Origin: Elusimicrobiota bacterium
GTDB taxonomy: Bacteria; CAYTYR01; UBA6262; DAOVJB01
Length of the DNA stretch: 19,288 nt
NCBI GenBank assembly: GCA_030673425.1
Contig: DAOVJB010000006.1
Span: 1 to 19,288 of the forward strand
Reading direction: 5' to 3'
Below are positions 7,648 through 18,769 of the stretch, one piece after another. The translations under genes and the position numbers were made by a program. Under the pieces are notes generated by a model. It ran no database searches, was not told the DNA's origin, and saw nothing but the letters and a program-made list of their open reading frames with translations. The stretch's first letter is position 1. Every line of letters begins with the position of its first letter.

Positions 7648-7669
7648 TAGCTACTTTTCAGGAGTGCTT

Positions 7670-8917
7670 ATGAAAAGATGGATTTTATTTTCATGTCTCT
7701 TATTTGTTTTAATCTGTCCTCTATCCGGTGCTTTTGCACAGGATGAAACGGTTGATAAGAGCTTGCAGATGAACGGGGCGTTCGGGGCCACTTCAATTGA
7801 CGGGGTAATATGGTACAACCTGAGCCTGTTCCCGGAGATTGCTTTCGGTAAGTTAGGCATAGGACTTTATATTCAGATTCTATATAATGATGAAGGCGGA
7901 ATCAGGGAAGACGACTGGGATACATGGGAAGACTGGGCGCAGATAATCTATTATATAAGATGGGCTCATAAAGGCGATCCACTCTATATAAGAGCGGGAG
8001 CTTTGGCAGATACGACATTAGGACACGGGATAATCGTCGGGCATTACAACAACCAGCTGGACATAAACAAGAGGAAAATAGGGCTTGTGTTTGATGTGAA
8101 CATGGACAGTTGGGGAATTGAAACAATGACCAACGATGTTCTAAAAGCACGTGTCATGGGGGTAAGGGGTTACCTAAGACCTCTTGCAAAATCATCACTC
8201 CTGCTTTTAGACAGGTTTGCTGTAGGCGCTACCTATGCTACCGATATAGATCCTGATGATGATAAGAATACCAGGAATGATGGAGTAGCGGTATTTGGCG
8301 GGGATGTTGAATTGCCTTTAATTACAACTAAGGCCTTCAATGCAATTTTATATGATGATTTAGCCAAAATCAGACCCGAGGATGACACTATACGCCAGCA
8401 GTTTGAAGATGACAAATCCGACTGGGGGAATGCTGTCGGCCTGATGGGTAAGGTTGTTATCATAAATTACAGGGTGGAAAGGCGTAATTTCAAAAAGAAC
8501 TTTGCAGTCCCTTATTTTGATTCTTTCTATGAAATGGAAAGAGCTACCAAGTTAGCAACTGTTGCTGCTAACACCGAGGACTTAAAAGGCTGGTACGGAG
8601 AACTCTCCTACGGTATTATGGGATTTTATGCTATGCTTGCTTATGAGGATTACGAGGGGAGAAACCCCCGTATGCGTGGTGAGGCAATGCTTAAGGGAGT
8701 GGTTCCGAGGATATCTTTTAAGATGATATATGATAAAAAAGAGATAGAGAATTTCCCGAAAGATTTAGGCGAATTGGATAGAAACTCGCTTCTTTCTACA
8801 GAGATAGGATATCAGATGACGCCTAATTTTGAAACGGTAATAATCTACCGCCAGGCGTTTGATAAAGACGGTAATGTGACTAAAACATCGTCTTTACAAA
8901 CAAGGTTCAGTTTCTAA
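7670..8917 (+). CDS. Predicted outer-membrane beta-barrel protein
   Basis: The 415-residue product starts MKRWILFSCLLFVLICPLSGAFAQ, a clear Sec signal peptide with likely cleavage after AFA (residue 23). The mature part is a run of alternating polar and hydrophobic strands, rich in Tyr, Gly and Asp (WYNLSLFPEIAFGKLGIGLYI, IIYYIRWAHKGDPLYIRAG, WYGELSYGIMGFYAMLAYEDY). The last residues, LQTRFSF, end in the C-terminal Phe used by the BAM machinery to recognise barrels. This supports an outer-membrane location in a diderm, but I do not recognise the family, so channel, adhesin or structural roles remain open. AGGAG at 7660-7664 is 5 bases from ATG 7670, which is preferred over GTG 7664. It precedes the pilin-like cluster, which has its own promoter. 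Confidence 0.8.
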   Translation: MKRWILFSCLLFVLICPLSGAFAQDETVDKSLQMNGAFGATSIDGVIWYNLSLFPEIAFGKLGIGLYIQILYNDEGGIREDDWDTWEDWAQIIYYIRWAHKGDPLYIRAGALADTTLGHGIIVGHYNNQLDINKRKIGLVFDVNMDSWGIETMTNDVLKARVMGVRGYLRPLAKSSLLLLDRFAVGATYATDIDPDDDKNTRNDGVAVFGGDVELPLITTKAFNAILYDDLAKIRPEDDTIRQQFEDDKSDWGNAVGLMGKVVIINYRVERRNFKKNFAVPYFDSFYEMERATKLATVAANTEDLKGWYGELSYGIMGFYAMLAYEDYEGRNPRMRGEAMLKGVVPRISFKMIYDKKEIENFPKDLGELDRNSLLSTEIGYQMTPNFETVIIYRQAFDKDGNVTKTSSLQTRFSF

Positions 8918-9009: not shown

Positions 9010-9438
9010 ATGAGGACTTACCCTAAATCCCAAAAAGGCTTTACTTTAATAGAGATTCTCATAGCTATTGCTATTCTAGGTTATGTTATTTTAGCAGTAA
9101 TAGGGCTATTTCAGTATACTACACTTTCTACTAAGGCAAGCGAGTTTTCAACACTGGCAACCAGTTATGCCAGGGAGCAGATGGAGGATATAAAACACCG
9201 GGATTTTGATAGTATTCCCGTAAGTACATGGACAGCTGAGCAGTCTGCACTGGGGCAGAAAGGGAACCTAATTTTTACGCGTCAGGTTACGGTAACCTAT
9301 ATGGATGTATCCTCAGGTGTATTGATTACTTCAGTTTCAGCTACGGACTTAAAGAGAATTGAGGTTAGACTAACCTGGACAGAGCGTGGAGAAGCCAGGG
9401 AAGTGGTTTTGACAAGCTTGGTTTCAAGACACTTATAG
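9010..9438 (+). CDS. Type IV prepilin-like protein (PilV/GspI-like minor pseudopilin)
   Basis: A 142-residue protein with a class III signal peptide: a short basic leader, then KG|FTLIEILIAIAILG. The cut would be after Gly10, leaving Phe +1 and Glu +5 for methylation and assembly by prepilin peptidase. The hydrophobic helix runs to about residue 35. A small, mostly beta globular part follows, containing SYAREQMEDIKHRDFDSI, which resembles PilV/GspI pseudopilins. It would sit in the inner membrane and enter a pilus or secretion pseudopilus tip. An alternative ATG at 8995 lies at the predicted transcription start and has no ribosome site. It is the first gene of the cluster and has a paralogous leader in the gene at 12414. 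No assembly ATPase, platform protein or prepilin peptidase is present in the window. Confidence 0.88.
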   Translation: MRTYPKSQKGFTLIEILIAIAILGYVILAVIGLFQYTTLSTKASEFSTLATSYAREQMEDIKHRDFDSIPVSTWTAEQSALGQKGNLIFTRQVTVTYMDVSSGVLITSVSATDLKRIEVRLTWTERGEAREVVLTSLVSRHL

Positions 9439-9472
9439 CCACTTAATCTGAAGTTGAAAAGAGGCGATGGAT

Positions 9473-11002
9473 ATGGAGATTTTTCGCAAGAAAAATTCAG
9501 AAAAAGGGCAGATTATGGTGATTGGGATTTTATCAATAGCAGTATTGTTAGTAATAGGAGGCACTTTAGTTTTTGTGGCCGTGAATGACAGGATACAATC
9601 AGTTAGAAGCGAACAGGCAACAAAAGCATTTTATGTAGCAGATGCAGGTATTGAATATGCTATATATCGACTGAGGAGTTCTTCAGCTACATTCATTGCT
9701 TCAAATACCTCTATCCCGAATACAGACGGGACTTTTGATGTTAGTGTAAGTACAACGGACATTGTTAATAGATACCAGATAGCTTCAACTGGGCATTATC
9801 CTGATGCATCAGAAGCAAGGGTAAATCGCAATATCTCGGTAAAAATAGCAAGAGACCCTCCTGCCCAGGTTTTTGATTATTCTTATTTCATAAATAACTG
9901 GGGTTGGTACTGGGGGCGTGATATCACAGCCAATGGTGATGTGCGCTCAAATGGTAGGTTTGATTTTGTAAATGGTCCCAGGGTTAACGGGCATATTTAC
10001 GCAGGACTTGAGATTGATGACCATGGAACACCTGTCAGGGGGACGGGTGGGCAGGCTGATCACCAGCATCAGTATCAGGAGAAAGTGGATATGCCAAACC
10101 TGCAGGACATCTCATATTACCAGACTAAAGCCATAAACGAGAGCGGTTCGATAACTATCGACGGCTCTGTTCTTATTGATGGGGTATACGGGGATGATAT
10201 GGGAGAAACAGGCAATCTTGTTCTTATAGGGACATCGCCCGACCCGATTGAACTTAACGGCACAGTAGTAGTTACAGGAGACTTGGTTATCAAAGGCAAG
10301 GTAATCGGGCAGGGTACTATTTATGTCGGACGAAACGCTTATATTGCCGATAATATTGATTACAAAAATTCACCGCCTTCTCCCAGACCGGTAAGCGAGA
10401 CCGCTTCTGTCTGCGACAATTGGGTACAGGCAAATAAGGATAAAGATTTGTTCTGCGTCGCAGCAAAAGAGAATATTATAATGGGAGATTATACCGATAC
10501 TAGCGGAACGGAGCAGTGGTATGCACATAACTGGCTATTCAGCATGGGAACTGAGGATGTAGGGCAGGATGGGATCCCTGATACAGATGATACTGGTGAG
10601 GGTGACGGGCTATTTACCCCAGTATATGAGGACATTGACGGTGATGGCGTTTTTGATGACAATTACAACTGGAGTGATATACAGACACAAACAGATATTA
10701 CAAACTTTACCAATGTACCTGCCGGAGTGACAAGTTTCGGTGATATCTCATCCCTTACTATTAATAAAGTAGAAGGACTATATTATACCAATCATGCTTT
10801 TGCAGGACGCACAGGTAATGCAATGGTATTTAATGGTACGATAGTTTCTAAGGATGAAGCTATAATTTACAGAAATAATATAACATTTAATTATGATGAA
10901 CGGGCAAACAGCAGATATCATGGAGATCCTAACAGATTTGTTGATCTAGGCCTTCCATCAGTAGAAAGGATGGAAGTGGTTGAATGGGAAGAAACAGACT
11001 AA
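9473..11002 (+). CDS. PilX-like minor pilin protein with large beta-rich body and calcium-loop-like motifs
   Basis: This 509-residue protein has one N-terminal membrane helix (about 14-37) after a short basic leader (EKGQIMVIGIL). Then comes the stretch EQATKAFYVADAGIEYAIYRL, whose ADAGIE (56-61) is characteristic of PilX N-terminal proteins. No Glu lies at +5 after the Gly, unlike true prepilins. Residues about 130-300 carry short repeated beta turns (ITANGDVRSNG, ITIDGSVLIDG, GTVVVTGDLVIKGKVIGQG), suggesting a parallel beta-helix. Residues 362-397 contain Asp-rich loops (DGIPDTDDTGEGDG, EDIDGDGVFDDN) like calcium-binding DxDxDG motifs. AGAGG at 9460-9464 fits ATG 9473 better than ATG 9467. 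A role at a pilus tip or surface is inferred from the neighbours; the exact function is unknown. Confidence 0.8.
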   Translation: MEIFRKKNSEKGQIMVIGILSIAVLLVIGGTLVFVAVNDRIQSVRSEQATKAFYVADAGIEYAIYRLRSSSATFIASNTSIPNTDGTFDVSVSTTDIVNRYQIASTGHYPDASEARVNRNISVKIARDPPAQVFDYSYFINNWGWYWGRDITANGDVRSNGRFDFVNGPRVNGHIYAGLEIDDHGTPVRGTGGQADHQHQYQEKVDMPNLQDISYYQTKAINESGSITIDGSVLIDGVYGDDMGETGNLVLIGTSPDPIELNGTVVVTGDLVIKGKVIGQGTIYVGRNAYIADNIDYKNSPPSPRPVSETASVCDNWVQANKDKDLFCVAAKENIIMGDYTDTSGTEQWYAHNWLFSMGTEDVGQDGIPDTDDTGEGDGLFTPVYEDIDGDGVFDDNYNWSDIQTQTDITNFTNVPAGVTSFGDISSLTINKVEGLYYTNHAFAGRTGNAMVFNGTIVSKDEAIIYRNNITFNYDERANSRYHGDPNRFVDLGLPSVERMEVVEWEETD

Positions 11003-11012
11003 AGGAATATGC

Positions 11013-11381
11013 ATGGAAACAAAAGGCACAAAAACTTTTTTATGCATAGTAGTGGTTATTTTTTGTATCGGGTTCTTTTCACACTTAGCGTATGCGCTTA
11101 GAGAAATTCCCGGTGATTATAGGGAGAATATAGAGGAAGACATAAAAAAGGAAAACATCCAGAAGAGAACGATTACAGAAAACAGGAAGAGAAAGCCCCA
11201 AATTAATAAAACGGTAAAGAAGAGTAGTCCCGGGGTTAAAGAACAAAAGAGTTTTTCAAGAGAGATATCAGGTGATAGAGACGAGCAGAAAAAGAGCTCA
11301 AACTTTTATGTTTTCGGTGGACTATTTTTTATTCTGATAGTCGGGGTAGTCATTATTTTTGTTAAGAAGCTGGAATCTTAA
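11013..11381 (+). CDS. Small membrane protein of unknown function within the pilin cluster
   Basis: A 122-residue protein that I do not recognise. The N-terminus (TFLCIVVVIFCIGFFSHLAYA) is a signal peptide or membrane anchor with possible cleavage after AYA. The middle (about 28-95) is very hydrophilic and rich in Lys, Glu and Arg. The C-terminus (FYVFGGLFFILIVGVVIIFV followed by KKLES) is a second membrane helix with a short basic tail. If the signal is cleaved, the charged part would face the periplasm. AAAGGA at 11001-11006 lies 6 bases before ATG 11013, so I use that start; an in-frame ATG at 10980 overlaps the previous gene and lacks a ribosome site. Position between two PilX-like genes suggests a helper or anchor for the same apparatus. 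Confidence 0.72.
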   Translation: METKGTKTFLCIVVVIFCIGFFSHLAYALREIPGDYRENIEEDIKKENIQKRTITENRKRKPQINKTVKKSSPGVKEQKSFSREISGDRDEQKKSSNFYVFGGLFFILIVGVVIIFVKKLES

Positions 11382-11397
11382 TAAAAGAGGTCGGGCG

Positions 11398-12375
11398 ATG
11401 AAAAGATTTGTCCTTAAGGGTAAAAGAGGGCTTGGAATTGTTTTACCGCTTGCGATAGTAATTGTGTTGATTGTACTGGGGCTGTGTTTAAGTTTCTTAG
11501 TATCCCATGAGACAAAAAGGCGCATCAAGAGTAAAAAATCCACCCTTGCTTTATATATTGCTGATGCGGGGATAGAAACCGCTCTTTATGAATTTGAACA
11601 ATCAACAGGACCGTATTCTTTTGGTGGAATAGAAACATTTTTACCGGACAGTACTGAGCCGGAGGGAAGTTTTATAGTCTCTTTTTCAAGCTCCCTAGCT
11701 TTTCCTGACCGCTGGGTGATAGAATCTATAGGGTATGTTCCCAATAGTGCATCTCCGAGGGCCACCAGAAAAATTGAAGCGATCTGTGAAAAGCCAATTT
11801 CTGTAACAAGTGCACTTGCTGCTGGCGGCAATGTAACGGTAGGAGGAAATGCTTCAATAGATGGCGGGACATTGCCAGGTGTTACATACCCCCCTAATGC
11901 TACTCCACCAGCTACACATGGTAGTGGAACTATCACCGGGCAACCAACAGATACAGCTACCGCCCCTTTTCCCTCTTTTGAAGGAACTTTTGGAATAACC
12001 TTTGACGAAATGTTTGACATAGCTATTTCCACATATACTTCTCCTGCCAATAATGTTCCTGCCGACGGAATTACCTGGTGCGATGGTGATTTTCAGGTAA
12101 CTACAAGCGGCTGGACAGGTTCGGGTATACTTGTAATAAGAGGGGATTTCAGGATGACAGGCGGGCAGTTTAACGGTATAATTTATGTTAAGGAGGGTTC
12201 TTTTGATATGTCAGGTGGTGCCTCAATTGTTGGATGCGTGTTTAGTGAAGATACCGCTGATATTGAGCTGGCAACAGGGACATCATCCATTACTTATAGT
12301 ACAACAACTGTTAACTCTGCCAGGGAGTTATATCCTTACAAGTACAAGATGACCTCATGGAAAGAGGTCCTCTAA
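11398..12375 (+). CDS. Second PilX-like protein with beta-rich body
   Basis: A 325-residue protein built like the product at 9473 but shorter. It has a basic leader, a membrane helix (about 12-36, LGIVLPLAIVIVLIVLGLCL) and a helix ending ALYIADAGIETALYEFE, with the same ADAGIE motif (55-60). Short Gly-rich beta turns follow (AAGGNVTVGGNASIDGG, GILVIRGDFRMTGG, GSFDMSGGASIVG), and the end is Ser/Thr-rich. It lacks the Asp-rich loops of the larger paralogue. No Glu +5 is present, so processing by prepilin peptidase is doubtful. AGAGG at 11386-11390 is 7 bases from ATG 11398. The pair probably arose by duplication and divergence. It likely joins or caps a pilus-like structure; this is inferred from context. 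Confidence 0.78.
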   Translation: MKRFVLKGKRGLGIVLPLAIVIVLIVLGLCLSFLVSHETKRRIKSKKSTLALYIADAGIETALYEFEQSTGPYSFGGIETFLPDSTEPEGSFIVSFSSSLAFPDRWVIESIGYVPNSASPRATRKIEAICEKPISVTSALAAGGNVTVGGNASIDGGTLPGVTYPPNATPPATHGSGTITGQPTDTATAPFPSFEGTFGITFDEMFDIAISTYTSPANNVPADGITWCDGDFQVTTSGWTGSGILVIRGDFRMTGGQFNGIIYVKEGSFDMSGGASIVGCVFSEDTADIELATGTSSITYSTTTVNSARELYPYKYKMTSWKEVL

Positions 12376-12413
12376 GCAGATAATTTTTGATTCTGAATTC
12401 TCCGGGTATATAT

Positions 12414-12929
12414 ATGAACAAATTGTCTAAAGGCTTTACTTTAGTAGAGATATGTATTGCCATAGCTATTCTTGGAATATTTATTGCAGGAGGAGCTGTT
12501 TTTTTTACCAAGATATATTCCTTGTGGCTGGATAATGCTGACCAGATAGAAATCCAGCAAAATGCCCGTATAGCAATGGATGAAATGAGTAAATACATCC
12601 GTCAGGCTTCATCTCCAACGGTCACTAATTCTGTTTTTATAGATAACTATGGGACAGAACCCGCATCAAGCCGGATACGTTTTCATCTTATTGATTGGAC
12701 AACAATCCAGTACTATCAAAGGGACGGAAAACTTTACAGAAGCAGGAATAATCCCGGTGAGAGTGCCCTGGAGACCGAGGTTACCGATAATCTAGGTGAG
12801 ATTTATTTTGTCAAAGAAAACCCTCAAGGAGCAGCTGATGATTATTGTGTAAAAATTTCCACCCTGACTTTAGAGAAAGACAACCAGAGTGTTACTTTAA
12901 GAGGGTATATACACTTGAAGAATCCCTGA
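12414..12929 (+). CDS. Type IV prepilin-like protein (PilW/GspJ-like minor pseudopilin)
   Basis: A 171-residue protein beginning MNKLSKGFTLVEICIAIAIL, a class III prepilin signal with the cut after Gly7, Phe +1 and Glu +5. A hydrophobic helix runs to about residue 30. It is followed by QIEIQQNARIAMDEMSKYIRQA, the conserved stretch of PilW/GspJ pseudopilins, and a beta-rich C-terminal part. It would be assembled with the product at 9010. ATG 12414 is chosen over TTG 12387 because it leaves the normal short leader peptide; the ribosome site is weak. It closes the cluster, and the gap that follows holds the DnaA-box-like sites before tmk. Confidence 0.88.
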   Translation: MNKLSKGFTLVEICIAIAILGIFIAGGAVFFTKIYSLWLDNADQIEIQQNARIAMDEMSKYIRQASSPTVTNSVFIDNYGTEPASSRIRFHLIDWTTIQYYQRDGKLYRSRNNPGESALETEVTDNLGEIYFVKENPQGAADDYCVKISTLTLEKDNQSVTLRGYIHLKNP

Positions 12930-12988: not shown

Positions 12989-13639
12989 ATGGGAAGGGGC
13001 ATCTTTATTACTTTAGAGGGACCTGACGGGGGTGGTAAGAGTACACAGGCCCAGAAATTATATAAATATTTACGTAATAAAGGCTATTCTGTTATAAGGA
13101 CCCGTGAGCCTGGCGGGACAAAGGTTGCGGAAAAATTGCGTTCGATACTGCTTGATGCGGGAAATAAGATATCCTCTCTTGCTGAAATATTTTTGTATGA
13201 AGCAATAAGGGCCCAGCATGTACAGGAACTGATAAAACCGGCAGTTGATGAGGGAAAGATAATTATTTGCGAGAGGTTCAGCGATGCCACATTTGCTTAT
13301 CAGGGATATGGCAGGGGAAAAGATATGAATATGATAAAAAAACTTGATAGTGTTGCTACGGACGGAGTTATTCCTCATTTAACTATCTTGCGTGATATAC
13401 CGCCGAAAACAGGAAAGATAAGGCTAGTGAATAGTTCTAAAAAACAAGATAGAATAGAACAGGAAAATATAGCCTTTCATAAAAGGGTTAGAGAGGGATA
13501 TTTAGAATTAGCACGCAAGTATCCTGGCCGTATAAAGATAATTTCTGCTCTGGGTTCAAAACAGGATATACATGAGAAAATAGCAGGATATGTTGAAGAA
13601 GTGATAAGGAGAAATAGAATAAAAAGATCAAGAAAATAA
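12989..13639 (+). CDS. tmk: Thymidylate kinase
   Basis: This cytoplasmic P-loop kinase phosphorylates dTMP to dTDP, an essential step to dTTP. The 216 residues include the P-loop GPDGGGKST (11-19), TREPGGT (38-44), RAQHVQELIKPA, and ICERFSDATFAYQGYGRG (93-110), which aligns with the DRY motif. Here Asp is replaced by Glu95, a conservative change. The LID-like part runs from Arg145 through QDRIEQE, followed by HKRVREGYLELA. Length is normal. AGGGGG at 12979-12984 precedes ATG 12989. It is followed 12 bases later by holB, giving a replication-linked pair conserved in many bacteria. Glu95 and the unusual IRLVNSSKKQD stretch make it a slightly divergent member, but the identity is firm. Confidence 0.94.
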   Translation: MGRGIFITLEGPDGGGKSTQAQKLYKYLRNKGYSVIRTREPGGTKVAEKLRSILLDAGNKISSLAEIFLYEAIRAQHVQELIKPAVDEGKIIICERFSDATFAYQGYGRGKDMNMIKKLDSVATDGVIPHLTILRDIPPKTGKIRLVNSSKKQDRIEQENIAFHKRVREGYLELARKYPGRIKIISALGSKQDIHEKIAGYVEEVIRRNRIKRSRK

Positions 13640-13651
13640 GGACAGCATTAA

Positions 13652-14671
13652 TTGTTTAAGGATATTATAAGACAAAATTCGGCTGTAGAGATCTTAAAAG
13701 CAGCGATAACCAATAACAGATGCGCATCGAGTTATTTATTTACAGGGACTGAGGGTGTAGGGAAGAAGCTCGCTGCTTTATCTTTTGCCCAGGTTCTTAA
13801 CTGCAGTGACTCTTTTGGTTCAGATGCCTGCGGGAAGTGTGTATCCTGCAGAAAGATAGCACACGGTAATCATCCTGAGGTTCAGGTCATTGTCCCGCAA
13901 AAGAAATCCATTTCAATTGACCAGATCCGTTCTGTGCAGAAGGATTCGTTTTTTAGACCTCTTGAGGCCAGAAGAAAAATTTATATTATAGATAAAGCCG
14001 AGACTATGACCCAGGAGGCGATGAACTGTTTCCTGAAGATACTGGAAGAACCTCCTCGGCAGGTTATTTTTATTTTAATCACATCAAATATATTGGGACT
14101 TCTTGAGACAATCGTGTCTCGCTGCCAGATAATTAAGTTTAATAATCTCCCAAGAGATATTATCAGCGGATTTCTTAAAGAAAAACATGGATTAGTCGAA
14201 GACGACGCATCTCTTGTTGCATCCTTATCCGGTGGGAGCATAGGACTTGCGCTTAATTACTGGAATTATGGAGTTGTGGAAAACAGGCAAGATATGGTAA
14301 AATTATTAGATGAGGTAAGTAGAGGGAATATATCTGTTTTATTTAGAGAAGCAGAGGCTTTGTCTAAAAACAAGGATGATATACAGATGGTGCTTAATCT
14401 CCTTTTAAGTCTTTACAGGGATATGCTTCTGGCGAAGTTTACCGCCCAATCCAAAGACGAAGAAATGAAAGATAAACTGTTAATAAATACAGAGCTTTAC
14501 AGTAGTCTTCCTGAGAAAGTAGAAGCTTATTCAACCGGGAAGTTAAAAGATGCCCTGAACGTTATTCTTACAACAAAAGGGCTCCTTAGCAAAAATGTAA
14601 ATGCACAATTGGCGTTAGAGACGATGTTTTTAAAACTCGTAGAAATCTACGGGAATCAGCCTGTAGTTTAA
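13652..14671 (+). CDS. holB: DNA polymerase III subunit delta' (clamp-loader subunit)
   Basis: This AAA+ subunit of the clamp loader helps place the sliding clamp on DNA. The 339 residues start MFKDIIRQNSAVEILK, typical of delta'. They contain a P-loop-like GTEGVGKK (32-39), a zinc knuckle of Cys51, Cys60, Cys63 and Cys66, the DEAD-box-equivalent IYIIDKAETMT, LLKILEEPP-like FLKILEEPP, and the SRC motif Ser156-Arg157-Cys158 whose arginine acts on the neighbouring subunit's ATP. A C-terminal helical collar domain follows. The start is the TTG at 13652, supported by AAGGA at 13638-13642 and by the conserved MFKDI beginning. It lies between tmk and ricT, the order seen in Firmicutes. The rare start codon may keep expression low. 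Confidence 0.94.
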   Translation: MFKDIIRQNSAVEILKAAITNNRCASSYLFTGTEGVGKKLAALSFAQVLNCSDSFGSDACGKCVSCRKIAHGNHPEVQVIVPQKKSISIDQIRSVQKDSFFRPLEARRKIYIIDKAETMTQEAMNCFLKILEEPPRQVIFILITSNILGLLETIVSRCQIIKFNNLPRDIISGFLKEKHGLVEDDASLVASLSGGSIGLALNYWNYGVVENRQDMVKLLDEVSRGNISVLFREAEALSKNKDDIQMVLNLLLSLYRDMLLAKFTAQSKDEEMKDKLLINTELYSSLPEKVEAYSTGKLKDALNVILTTKGLLSKNVNAQLALETMFLKLVEIYGNQPVV

Positions 14672-14694
14672 CTTATGTTTGAGGAGAGATATTG

Positions 14695-15519
14695 ATGCCG
14701 GAAGTAGTGAGTGTTTGCGTCAGAAAGATGAAAGAGATATTTTACTTTGACCCCAAGGGGATAGATTTGGGTATAGGGGACGTCTGTCTTGTAGAGACAG
14801 AGAATGATATGGAACTCGGTACCGTAACAGAGGAGACCAAGATTGTTGCCGAAGTTCCCGGTGACCTGAGGAAGGTTGTGCGTAAGCTTTCGCCTGATGA
14901 CCAGAGGCAACTTAGGGAGAACAGTAAAAAAGAGCAGGAGGCATACAGTGTATGTTTAAGGAAAATAGATGATAAAGAACTGGATATGAAACTGGTGAGT
15001 GTCTCCTACACATTTAACCGGAATAAATTATTCATTTATTATACTGCTCCTGAGAGGGTGGATTTCAGGGAACTGGTTAAGGATTTAGCATACATGTTGA
15101 AAACACGAATTGAAATGTGCCAGATAGGGGTAAGGGACGAGGCAAAGATATGCGGCGGTTTCGGTCTTTGTGGAAGACCGTTGTGCTGTGTCTCTTTCCT
15201 TAAGGATTTTAAACCCGTAACGATAGAGATGGCAAAAGACCAGGAACTATCCCTGAGTTCGTCCAAAATCTCGGGATTGTGCGGGCGCCTGATGTGCTGC
15301 CTGGCTTACGAACATGCTTTTTATCAGGGAATGAGAAGGGATATGCCGCGTATAGATGATAAGGTCCGGACAAGCGACGGTACAGGCAGGGTAGTTTCAA
15401 TCAATGTGCTTAAGAAAGAAGTTGTTGTAGAACTCGATGAAGGCCTCGTAAAGAAGTTTCCCCCCAGCGGTATATCAAAAATCTATTCAAACAGAAACAA
15501 ATCAAAACATCACAAGTGA
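14695..15519 (+). CDS. ricT: PSP1-domain protein of the RicT/YaaT family
   Basis: The 274 residues match RicT (YaaT), which in Bacillus subtilis works with RicA and RicF in an Fe-S-containing complex that supports RNase Y mRNA processing and development. Cys153, 159, 164, 165, 196, 201 and 202 lie in CGGFGLCGRPLCC and ISGLCGRLMCC, the conserved cysteine-rich segments. MAKDQELSLSSSKISG is the linking signature. The C-terminus after about residue 220 forms a KOW-like beta module (KVRTSDGTGRVVSINVL) and a basic tail. GAGGAG at 14681-14686 sets ATG 14695, preferred over the TTG at 14692. It lies between holB and metG, as in many genomes. RicA and RicF homologues are not seen here, so the role in this organism is uncertain. 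Confidence 0.92.
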   Translation: MPEVVSVCVRKMKEIFYFDPKGIDLGIGDVCLVETENDMELGTVTEETKIVAEVPGDLRKVVRKLSPDDQRQLRENSKKEQEAYSVCLRKIDDKELDMKLVSVSYTFNRNKLFIYYTAPERVDFRELVKDLAYMLKTRIEMCQIGVRDEAKICGGFGLCGRPLCCVSFLKDFKPVTIEMAKDQELSLSSSKISGLCGRLMCCLAYEHAFYQGMRRDMPRIDDKVRTSDGTGRVVSINVLKKEVVVELDEGLVKKFPPSGISKIYSNRNKSKHHK

Positions 15520-17749: not shown

Positions 17750-17857
17750 AGGAGGGACCCCGTCCGAAAGGGAATATTATTGTGAATTTTTTAGAACGAA
17801 AATAGTCCCGGGGTGTCTAATATATGTAATGGATTAAAATCTAAAGAGGGCATCAAA
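17750..17857 (+). promoter_or_regulatory. Structured 5' leader of the CBM-like gene (unclassified)
   Basis: In this leader, ACCCCG (17757-17762) can pair with CGGGGT (17809-17814), with weaker pairs extending outward. GGGAC (17754-17758) can instead pair with GTCCC (17805-17809). Both pairings share bases and would compete. Inside the helix, CC-GAAA-GG at 17764-17771 can form a GNRA-capped hairpin. I do not recognise a known riboswitch class. AGAGGG at 17845-17850 is the ribosome site. Confidence 0.35.
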
Positions 17858-18769
17858 ATGAAGAATAGAAAAGTAGTCTTATGGATTATTCTTGTAGTTG
17901 ACATTTTCATTATAATAGAAGCAGGGTTGTTTGTCTGGAAGAAGCTGCACACGCCTAAAGGTAAACCGGAGGCAACCAAAGTTGTCGAGAAAAGACCTCC
18001 TGTCCTCACCCCTAAGGTTGTAAAAAAACCTGCTGAAAAACCAAAAGTTGTAGCTAAGAAAAAAACGATTTCTTCTAAGCCCACCAAGCCTAAAGTTACC
18101 CAAAAACCTAAGGTAACCGAACCAAAGAAAAAAGAAAAACCTAAACCTGTAAAACCCGCAATTAAAAAGCTTTCAACTTCTACAACCGTAGCTAAGAAAA
18201 AGAAGACCTCTAAAACTGAAACAACGGCCGATATAATAAGATCCAGAGGAGATTTAATATTTGGATTTGAAACTACTTTGGAAGGGTGGGAAATTCCTGA
18301 CTGGGCATTGGAAAAAGATGATCATGTGGCTAAAAGCGCGACCTTATCAAGAGAGCATGCTTCAGAAGGCCAATATTCGCTCAAACTTGTAGCGGATTTC
18401 CCCGGAGGCGGTGCCTGGACGGCAGCACTGATAGAAGTGATGGAATATTTTGATTGGAGTCCATACAGTGTCATATCAGTAGATGTTTATATACCTGAAG
18501 GTGCTACTAACAAACTTAAAGGCGAAATAATTTTTACTGTAGGGGAGGATTGGACATGGACAGAAATGAGTCGCACGACAAAATTGAAAACTGGAGAATG
18601 GACTACTATTAAAGCCAACATGAAACCGGGGAGCAAGACTTGGAGACGGTATAAACCTGATGATGAATTCAGAGCCGATGTCAGGAAGGTGGCGATAAGA
18701 ATAGCTTCTGATAAATTTCCTGTCTACAACGGACCGATTTATATTGACAATATCAGGCTTATAAAGTAA
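17858..18769 (+). CDS. Membrane-anchored protein with Lys/Pro-rich linker and CBM-like C-terminal domain
   Basis: A 303-residue protein in three parts. A membrane helix (about 6-27, VVLWIILVVDIFIIIEAGLF) is followed by a low-complexity linker (about 33-122) made of Lys, Pro, Thr and Val repeats such as KKPAEKPKVVAKK, like the wall- or periplasm-spanning linkers of TonB-type proteins. A globular beta domain (about 130-303) follows. This domain begins IFGFETTLEGWEI and ends YNGPIYIDNIRLIK. The FE...LEGWE opening, DVYIPEG strand and YIDNIRL ending are typical jelly-roll carbohydrate-binding (CBM11/CIA30-like) folds, so it may bind glycans in the periplasm or surface layer. No catalytic domain is attached. 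AGAGGG at 17845-17850 sets ATG 17858. The gene has its own promoter and structured leader. The CBM assignment is by fold pattern only. Confidence 0.82.
   Translation: MKNRKVVLWIILVVDIFIIIEAGLFVWKKLHTPKGKPEATKVVEKRPPVLTPKVVKKPAEKPKVVAKKKTISSKPTKPKVTQKPKVTEPKKKEKPKPVKPAIKKLSTSTTVAKKKKTSKTETTADIIRSRGDLIFGFETTLEGWEIPDWALEKDDHVAKSATLSREHASEGQYSLKLVADFPGGGAWTAALIEVMEYFDWSPYSVISVDVYIPEGATNKLKGEIIFTVGEDWTWTEMSRTTKLKTGEWTTIKANMKPGSKTWRRYKPDDEFRADVRKVAIRIASDKFPVYNGPIYIDNIRLIK

Follow-up and report, generated by a model that had tools for sequence, protein, structure and literature searches.

Introduction

What a type IV pilus binds is decided by the complex at its tip, and the described systems closest to the locus reported here are type IVa minor-pilin clusters, the minor pseudopilins of the type II secretion system (T2SS) and the ComZ locus of Thermus thermophilus. 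The residue Glu5 is absent from PilX of Myxococcus xanthus, Pseudomonas and Neisseria gonorrhoeae and from GspK (PMC7541494). A subunit which is oversized and lacks this residue has been proposed as the signature of the first, or tip, subunit, and most systems have one such subunit per set (PMC5207764). ComZ binds DNA, is required for transformation and has been proposed to be a tip-located DNA receptor; the ice-binding protein FfIBP was reported as closest to its beta-solenoid (PMC6561018).

Here, we describe a five-gene minor-pilin locus in a 19,288-nucleotide stretch of DNA (the window), which is the entire contig C155 of an 88% complete, 1.32 Mb Elusimicrobiota assembly. We consider it fairly probable that the locus is a PilY1-independent, alternative minor-pilin cassette which primes a type IV filament and forms its tip, a place at which many other bacteria rely on the adhesin PilY1.

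Results

Gene products of the locus

An earlier note, made from the sequence alone, had listed a PilV-like prepilin, a large PilX-like protein, a small membrane protein, a second PilX-like protein and a PilW-like prepilin, and all five open reading frames are indeed present in this order on the + strand. We refer to the two PilX-like proteins as XL and X2.

9010..9438, + strand: PilV/GspI-like minor prepilin, 142 aa; N_methyl match (5.6e-8), class III leader, Glu+5
9467..11002, + strand: XL, large PilX/GspK-type minor pilin; stalk ~1-130, conserved body ~131-509, no Glu+5
11013..11381, + strand: small membrane protein, 122 aa, from hydropathy
11398..12375, + strand: X2, second PilX/GspK-type minor pilin, 325 aa; stalk and predicted solenoid body ~133-307, no Glu+5
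12414..12929, + strand: PilW/GspJ-like minor prepilin, 171 aa; N_methyl match (3.8e-6), class III leader, Glu+5
12989..15519, + strand: tmk, holB-like and PSP1 genes (Thymidylate_kin 4.4e-49, PSP1 1.3e-32); syntenic context, outside the putative tip cassette

The PilV- and PilW-like products carry the hallmarks of type IV minor pilins: both score above the N_methyl cut-off and begin with a leader of the G/FTLxE type (MRTYPKSQKG/FTLIE and MNKLSKG/FTLVE, the slash marking the cleavage site) followed by a hydrophobic helix. The former also matches the PilV model TIGR02523 (1.1e-8) and a GspI model, in each case under the model's cut-off. XL is 511 aa long, or 509 aa if started at the second ATG (9473). 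The hydropathy profile of the small protein shows a signal-peptide-like N-terminal segment, a charged linker and a C-terminal transmembrane segment with a basic tail. A match of this protein to EssA of the type VII secretion system (E 0.0014) lies under the cut-off and was set aside as compositional or transmembrane-driven. Matches to the Verru_Chthon cassette and to Hps rest on the generic leader, and we found nothing on either in the literature. Elsewhere in the window, a signal-peptide protein is encoded directly upstream of the cassette (7664-8917), with an NCBIfam ImpL63 match far under cut-off; the relatives carry another gene at this place. The product of 17813-18769 combines a hydrophobic N-terminal segment, a K/P-rich linker and a C-terminal CBM27-like carbohydrate-binding domain (1.3e-7).

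A pilin-type stalk common to XL and X2

The N-terminal stalks of XL and X2 align with one another over ~116 residues (hhalign probability 98.1%, E 1.3e-13). Their bodies do not align, and the idea that these are the same domain was dropped. Individually, both proteins match PilX_N weakly and under the Pfam cut-off (E 0.0175 and 0.14 in a one-genome search). Three of the five X2 orthologues match PilX_N, and among 24 XL homologues there are PilX_N matches in seven and GspK matches in six (best 1.7e-5). The homology of the stalks to one another, together with these matches among homologues, identifies both proteins as PilX/GspK-type, and the possibility raised at the outset that the proteins would share no pilin-type helix did not materialise. 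Residue +5 is I in XL and L in X2. The absence of Glu+5 had been correctly noted; that it is an oddity is overruled by the literature, in which PilX and GspK normally lack the residue (PMC7541494, PMC5207764). Two such proteins in one cassette would, by comparison with described sets, be the less usual feature, and they fit poorly with a simple one-cap model.

The cassette is conserved in the class

We compared the source genome with four further genomes of the same class, five in all. The genes pilV, X2 and pilW, followed by tmk and holB, are kept at the matching place in all four, and the tmk, holB-like and PSP1 genes come after the cassette in the same order in L028, L033 and L035, and in L027 as far as the available sequence extends. 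This confirms that the locus is real and conserved rather than a product of chance, because relatives keep the genes in order; the search of other genomes for the same gene order thus came out in favour of the locus. XL lies between pilV and X2 in two of the four (L027, L028), whereas the cassettes of G001 and G004 are without XL and without the small-protein half. XL is therefore dispensable, since two of the five genomes of the class have the cassette without it. Where present it is the best conserved cassette protein, as judged by identity to G003 (XL 57%, thymidylate kinase 52%, PilV-like 50%, X2 42%, PilW-like 42%, small protein 34%), with 57/54% identity to its same-class orthologues. 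Corresponding values are 47-50% for the PilV-like protein across three same-class genomes and 38-45% for the PilW-like protein; X2 has orthologues in all four. The two genomes without XL encode further X2-like pilins away from the cassette (L034 6443-7405 on G001:C58, and G004:C41:29507-30424).

The small protein had been described as the product of its own gene, which is the case here but not in two relatives, where it is fused to X2 in a single open reading frame of 463 and 471 aa (L027 and L028). The fused product consists of a signal-peptide-like segment, a linker, a transmembrane segment and a basic stretch, followed by the PilX-type helix. This 'Rosetta-stone' arrangement points to a joint function of X2 and the small protein. 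An assembly frameshift was considered as the origin of the split in the window and rejected: X2 has its own Shine-Dalgarno sequence and an ATG 16 bases past the stop of the small gene, which makes a real gene split more likely, though not proven.

The X2 body is predicted to resemble ComZ and ice-binding proteins

An AlphaFold model of X2 has a mean pLDDT of 61, rising to 84-91 over residues 211-280, and its stalk region is of low confidence. Residues 133-307 superpose on ice-binding proteins with VIA-align Z scores of 13-15 (rmsd 2.6-3.0 Å over 150-165 residues), and we predict from this model that the X2 body folds as an ice-binding-protein beta-solenoid. The only pilin among the structural matches is ComZ of T. 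thermophilus (6QVI; Foldseek ranks 3-5, E 0.013-0.033). The alignment with 6QVI extends over 218 residues within 34-312 (VIA-align Z 9.5) and takes in the stalk side as well as the solenoid, but the placing of the two domains relative to one another is unconfirmed because the rmsd is 10.4 Å. With that proviso on domain placing, the predicted model of X2 combines a pilin domain with an ice-binding-type beta-solenoid, as ComZ does.

XL belongs to a family found in another phylum

With a profile built from four sequences, we searched 40 genomes of another phylum and found XL-family members in 12, mainly as full-length proteins; matches in further genomes are partial and more diverged. The body corresponds to no named family in Pfam or NCBIfam and contains three conserved motifs: (F/Y)xNNWGWxWG...GDxRSN..FDF, GPVVVxGDVxIxGxITGQGTLYxGxNIYIAG and YTNHAxAG...G..I.(R/K)DEA. 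By these profile comparisons, XL represents a large, widespread and as yet unnamed family. Weak matches of the homologues to the beta-helix families MinC_C, Bactofilin, FapA and DapD, and nothing beyond such weak profile matches, make the stretch ~250-300 of the XL body probably beta-helical. The AlphaFold model of XL, made from a three-row alignment, is unusable (pLDDT 31), and no fold search was based on it. Sequence comparison of XL with ComZ is not significant (E 0.13).

In the other phylum, XL-family genes mostly have pilV- and pilW-like prepilin genes as neighbours. In 13 of 20 loci, one of the next three genes downstream encodes a protein of 100-220 aa that has a hydrophobic segment near its N-terminus and a single C-terminal transmembrane segment. 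The same architecture occurs in none of 55 other open reading frames of that size in those loci and in two of 75 in further loci (Fisher p ~1e-9, a value which overstates independence since the loci are related). Architecture and position are what these proteins and the small protein of the window have in common; sequence homology between them was not found (hhalign probability 2%). One locus (L085 4588-8257, - strand, G090), in a phylum different from that of the window, contains two tandem XL-family pilins downstream of pilV and pilW, a further two-cap cassette.

Pilus machinery is encoded elsewhere and PilY1 is not detected

We searched the source genome family by family with profiles. Length and sequence mark four of its ATPases as PilB-type and two as PilT-type, and it also encodes a prepilin peptidase, three secretins and 14 N-methyl prepilins; pilus machinery is thus present elsewhere in the genome, where the earlier note had advised looking for it. 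None of the assembly ATPase, platform and secretin lies within the window, and all are present elsewhere; the suggestion that the locus might be a distinct pilus-tip or secretion system is not supported in the sense of a separate machine. A T2SS on contig C93 has its own H-I-J-K minor pseudopilins with a secretin, and an H-V-W-X minor-pilin cluster on C19 adjoins pilM and is conserved in the class. Since both have their own sets, the cassette in the window is a third, separate minor-pilin set.

PilY1 (PF05567) has no match in the 88% complete source genome or in the four same-class genomes (G000-G004). The earlier note's statement that no PilY1 gene is present thus extends from the window to five genomes. 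As a positive control, the same search gave PF05567 matches in 23 of 145 sampled genomes. PilY1 carries a propeller-type domain. On C19 (L030, G000:C19, 1858-3321, + strand; also L040-L042), a PilX-type pilin is fused to a PQQ/BamB-like beta-propeller (PF13360, 4.5e-31). Because of the propeller-type domain common to both, this fusion is a candidate for a one-polypeptide replacement of PilX and PilY1, which would be a second substitute in the same cell.

Discussion

If the locus is indeed a priming and tip cassette, the PilV-like and PilW-like proteins, XL and X2 would be processed by the prepilin peptidase of the genome and would then form an inner-membrane priming complex, which would start the fibre and end at its tip. 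There, with PilY1 missing, the X2 solenoid (as in ComZ) and the XL body would be displayed as an adhesin or receptor. The small protein would be a membrane partner of X2, and probably of XL, and perhaps holds the bulky caps before assembly. Bulky pilins without Glu5 are what would be expected of a first or tip subunit by analogy with described systems (PMC5207764, PMC7541494); we infer the tip position, the adhesive or receptor role, the part played by the small protein and the assembly machine used. The proposal that XL itself fills a PilY1-like tip role survives in part. The ComZ precedent (PMC6561018) and the failure to detect PilY1 speak for it, but XL is not the sole candidate, given the PilX-propeller cluster, and the likeness to ComZ was found for the X2 body rather than for XL.

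The evidence also has to be weighed against other uses of the same proteins. In one, the locus would supply the minor pseudopilins of a second type II-like secretion system, and XL and X2 would be GspK-like caps in contact with secreted substrates instead of surface adhesins. The GspK matches among XL homologues, the GspI match of the PilV-like protein under cut-off and the presence of three secretins and four PilB/GspE-type ATPases would all suit such a system, yet the recognisable T2SS on C93 already has H-I-J-K with a secretin, secretion genes were not found beside the cassette in the relatives examined and the presence of two PilT-type ATPases suggests retractile pili. We regard this explanation as unlikely. 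We give no greater weight to a special case of the tip cassette, a ComZ-like competence tip with solenoid bodies which would bind extracellular DNA for uptake: the alignment of X2 with ComZ, a DNA-binding protein on which transformation depends (PMC6561018), argues for it, but ice-binding proteins have the solenoid fold too, so that the ligand cannot be read from the fold.

It is less likely still that the XL body is a catalytic domain, for instance one active on polysaccharides, carried on a pilin stalk. Its conservation (38-40% identity to an other-phylum homologue, and invariance at many W, Y, D, N and H positions) is above that expected of a variable adhesin and would accord with catalysis. 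Against this, the body gives no meaningful-score match to any enzyme family in Pfam or NCBIfam, and distant members of the family lose most of the invariant polar residues. A more far-reaching version of the priming and tip cassette is that giant tip pilins of the XL type form a cross-phylum family not described before which, with a dedicated small membrane partner encoded alongside, takes the place of PilY1 as the adhesin and priming module of type IV filaments, here in a two-cap tip with the ComZ-like X2; we put this forward tentatively, as a possibility we rather doubt. Since PilY1 was found in 23 of 145 sampled genomes, other tips probably exist, and the XL family, its recurrent small partner and the ComZ-like pilin offer specific candidates for tips that work without PilY1 in uncultivated phyla.

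Compared with the FimU-PilV-PilW-PilX-PilY1 clusters of type IVa systems in M. xanthus and Pseudomonas (PMC7541494), the cassette likewise combines PilV- and PilW-like proteins with Glu5 and PilX-type proteins without it, and M. xanthus, like the source genome, has several minor-pilin sets (PMC7541494). The cassette differs in having no FimU, in the lack of a PilY1 match in the genome, and in its two oversized PilX-type proteins and extra small membrane protein. GspH-I-J-K of the T2SS includes in GspK a bulky cap without Glu5, and some members of the XL family match the GspK model; however, the X2 model does not show the inserted helical domain of GspK, and the T2SS of the source genome holds a separate H-I-J-K set. 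Ice-binding proteins of the DUF3494 fold (e.g. 5UYT, 4NU2) resemble X2 in the body, at 12-20% identity, but X2 is carried on a pilin stalk and the likeness is one of predicted fold. The ComZ/PilA2 locus of T. thermophilus resembles the cassette in having a large pilin whose body is a beta-solenoid of the ice-binding-protein fold, an A(E/D)AG motif past the stalk, a gene placed among minor pilins and a proposed tip position. In the cassette, the solenoid likeness is seen for X2 only, X2 is the smaller protein (325 aa), a part in DNA binding and transformation would follow only by analogy, and XL and the small membrane partner are additional.
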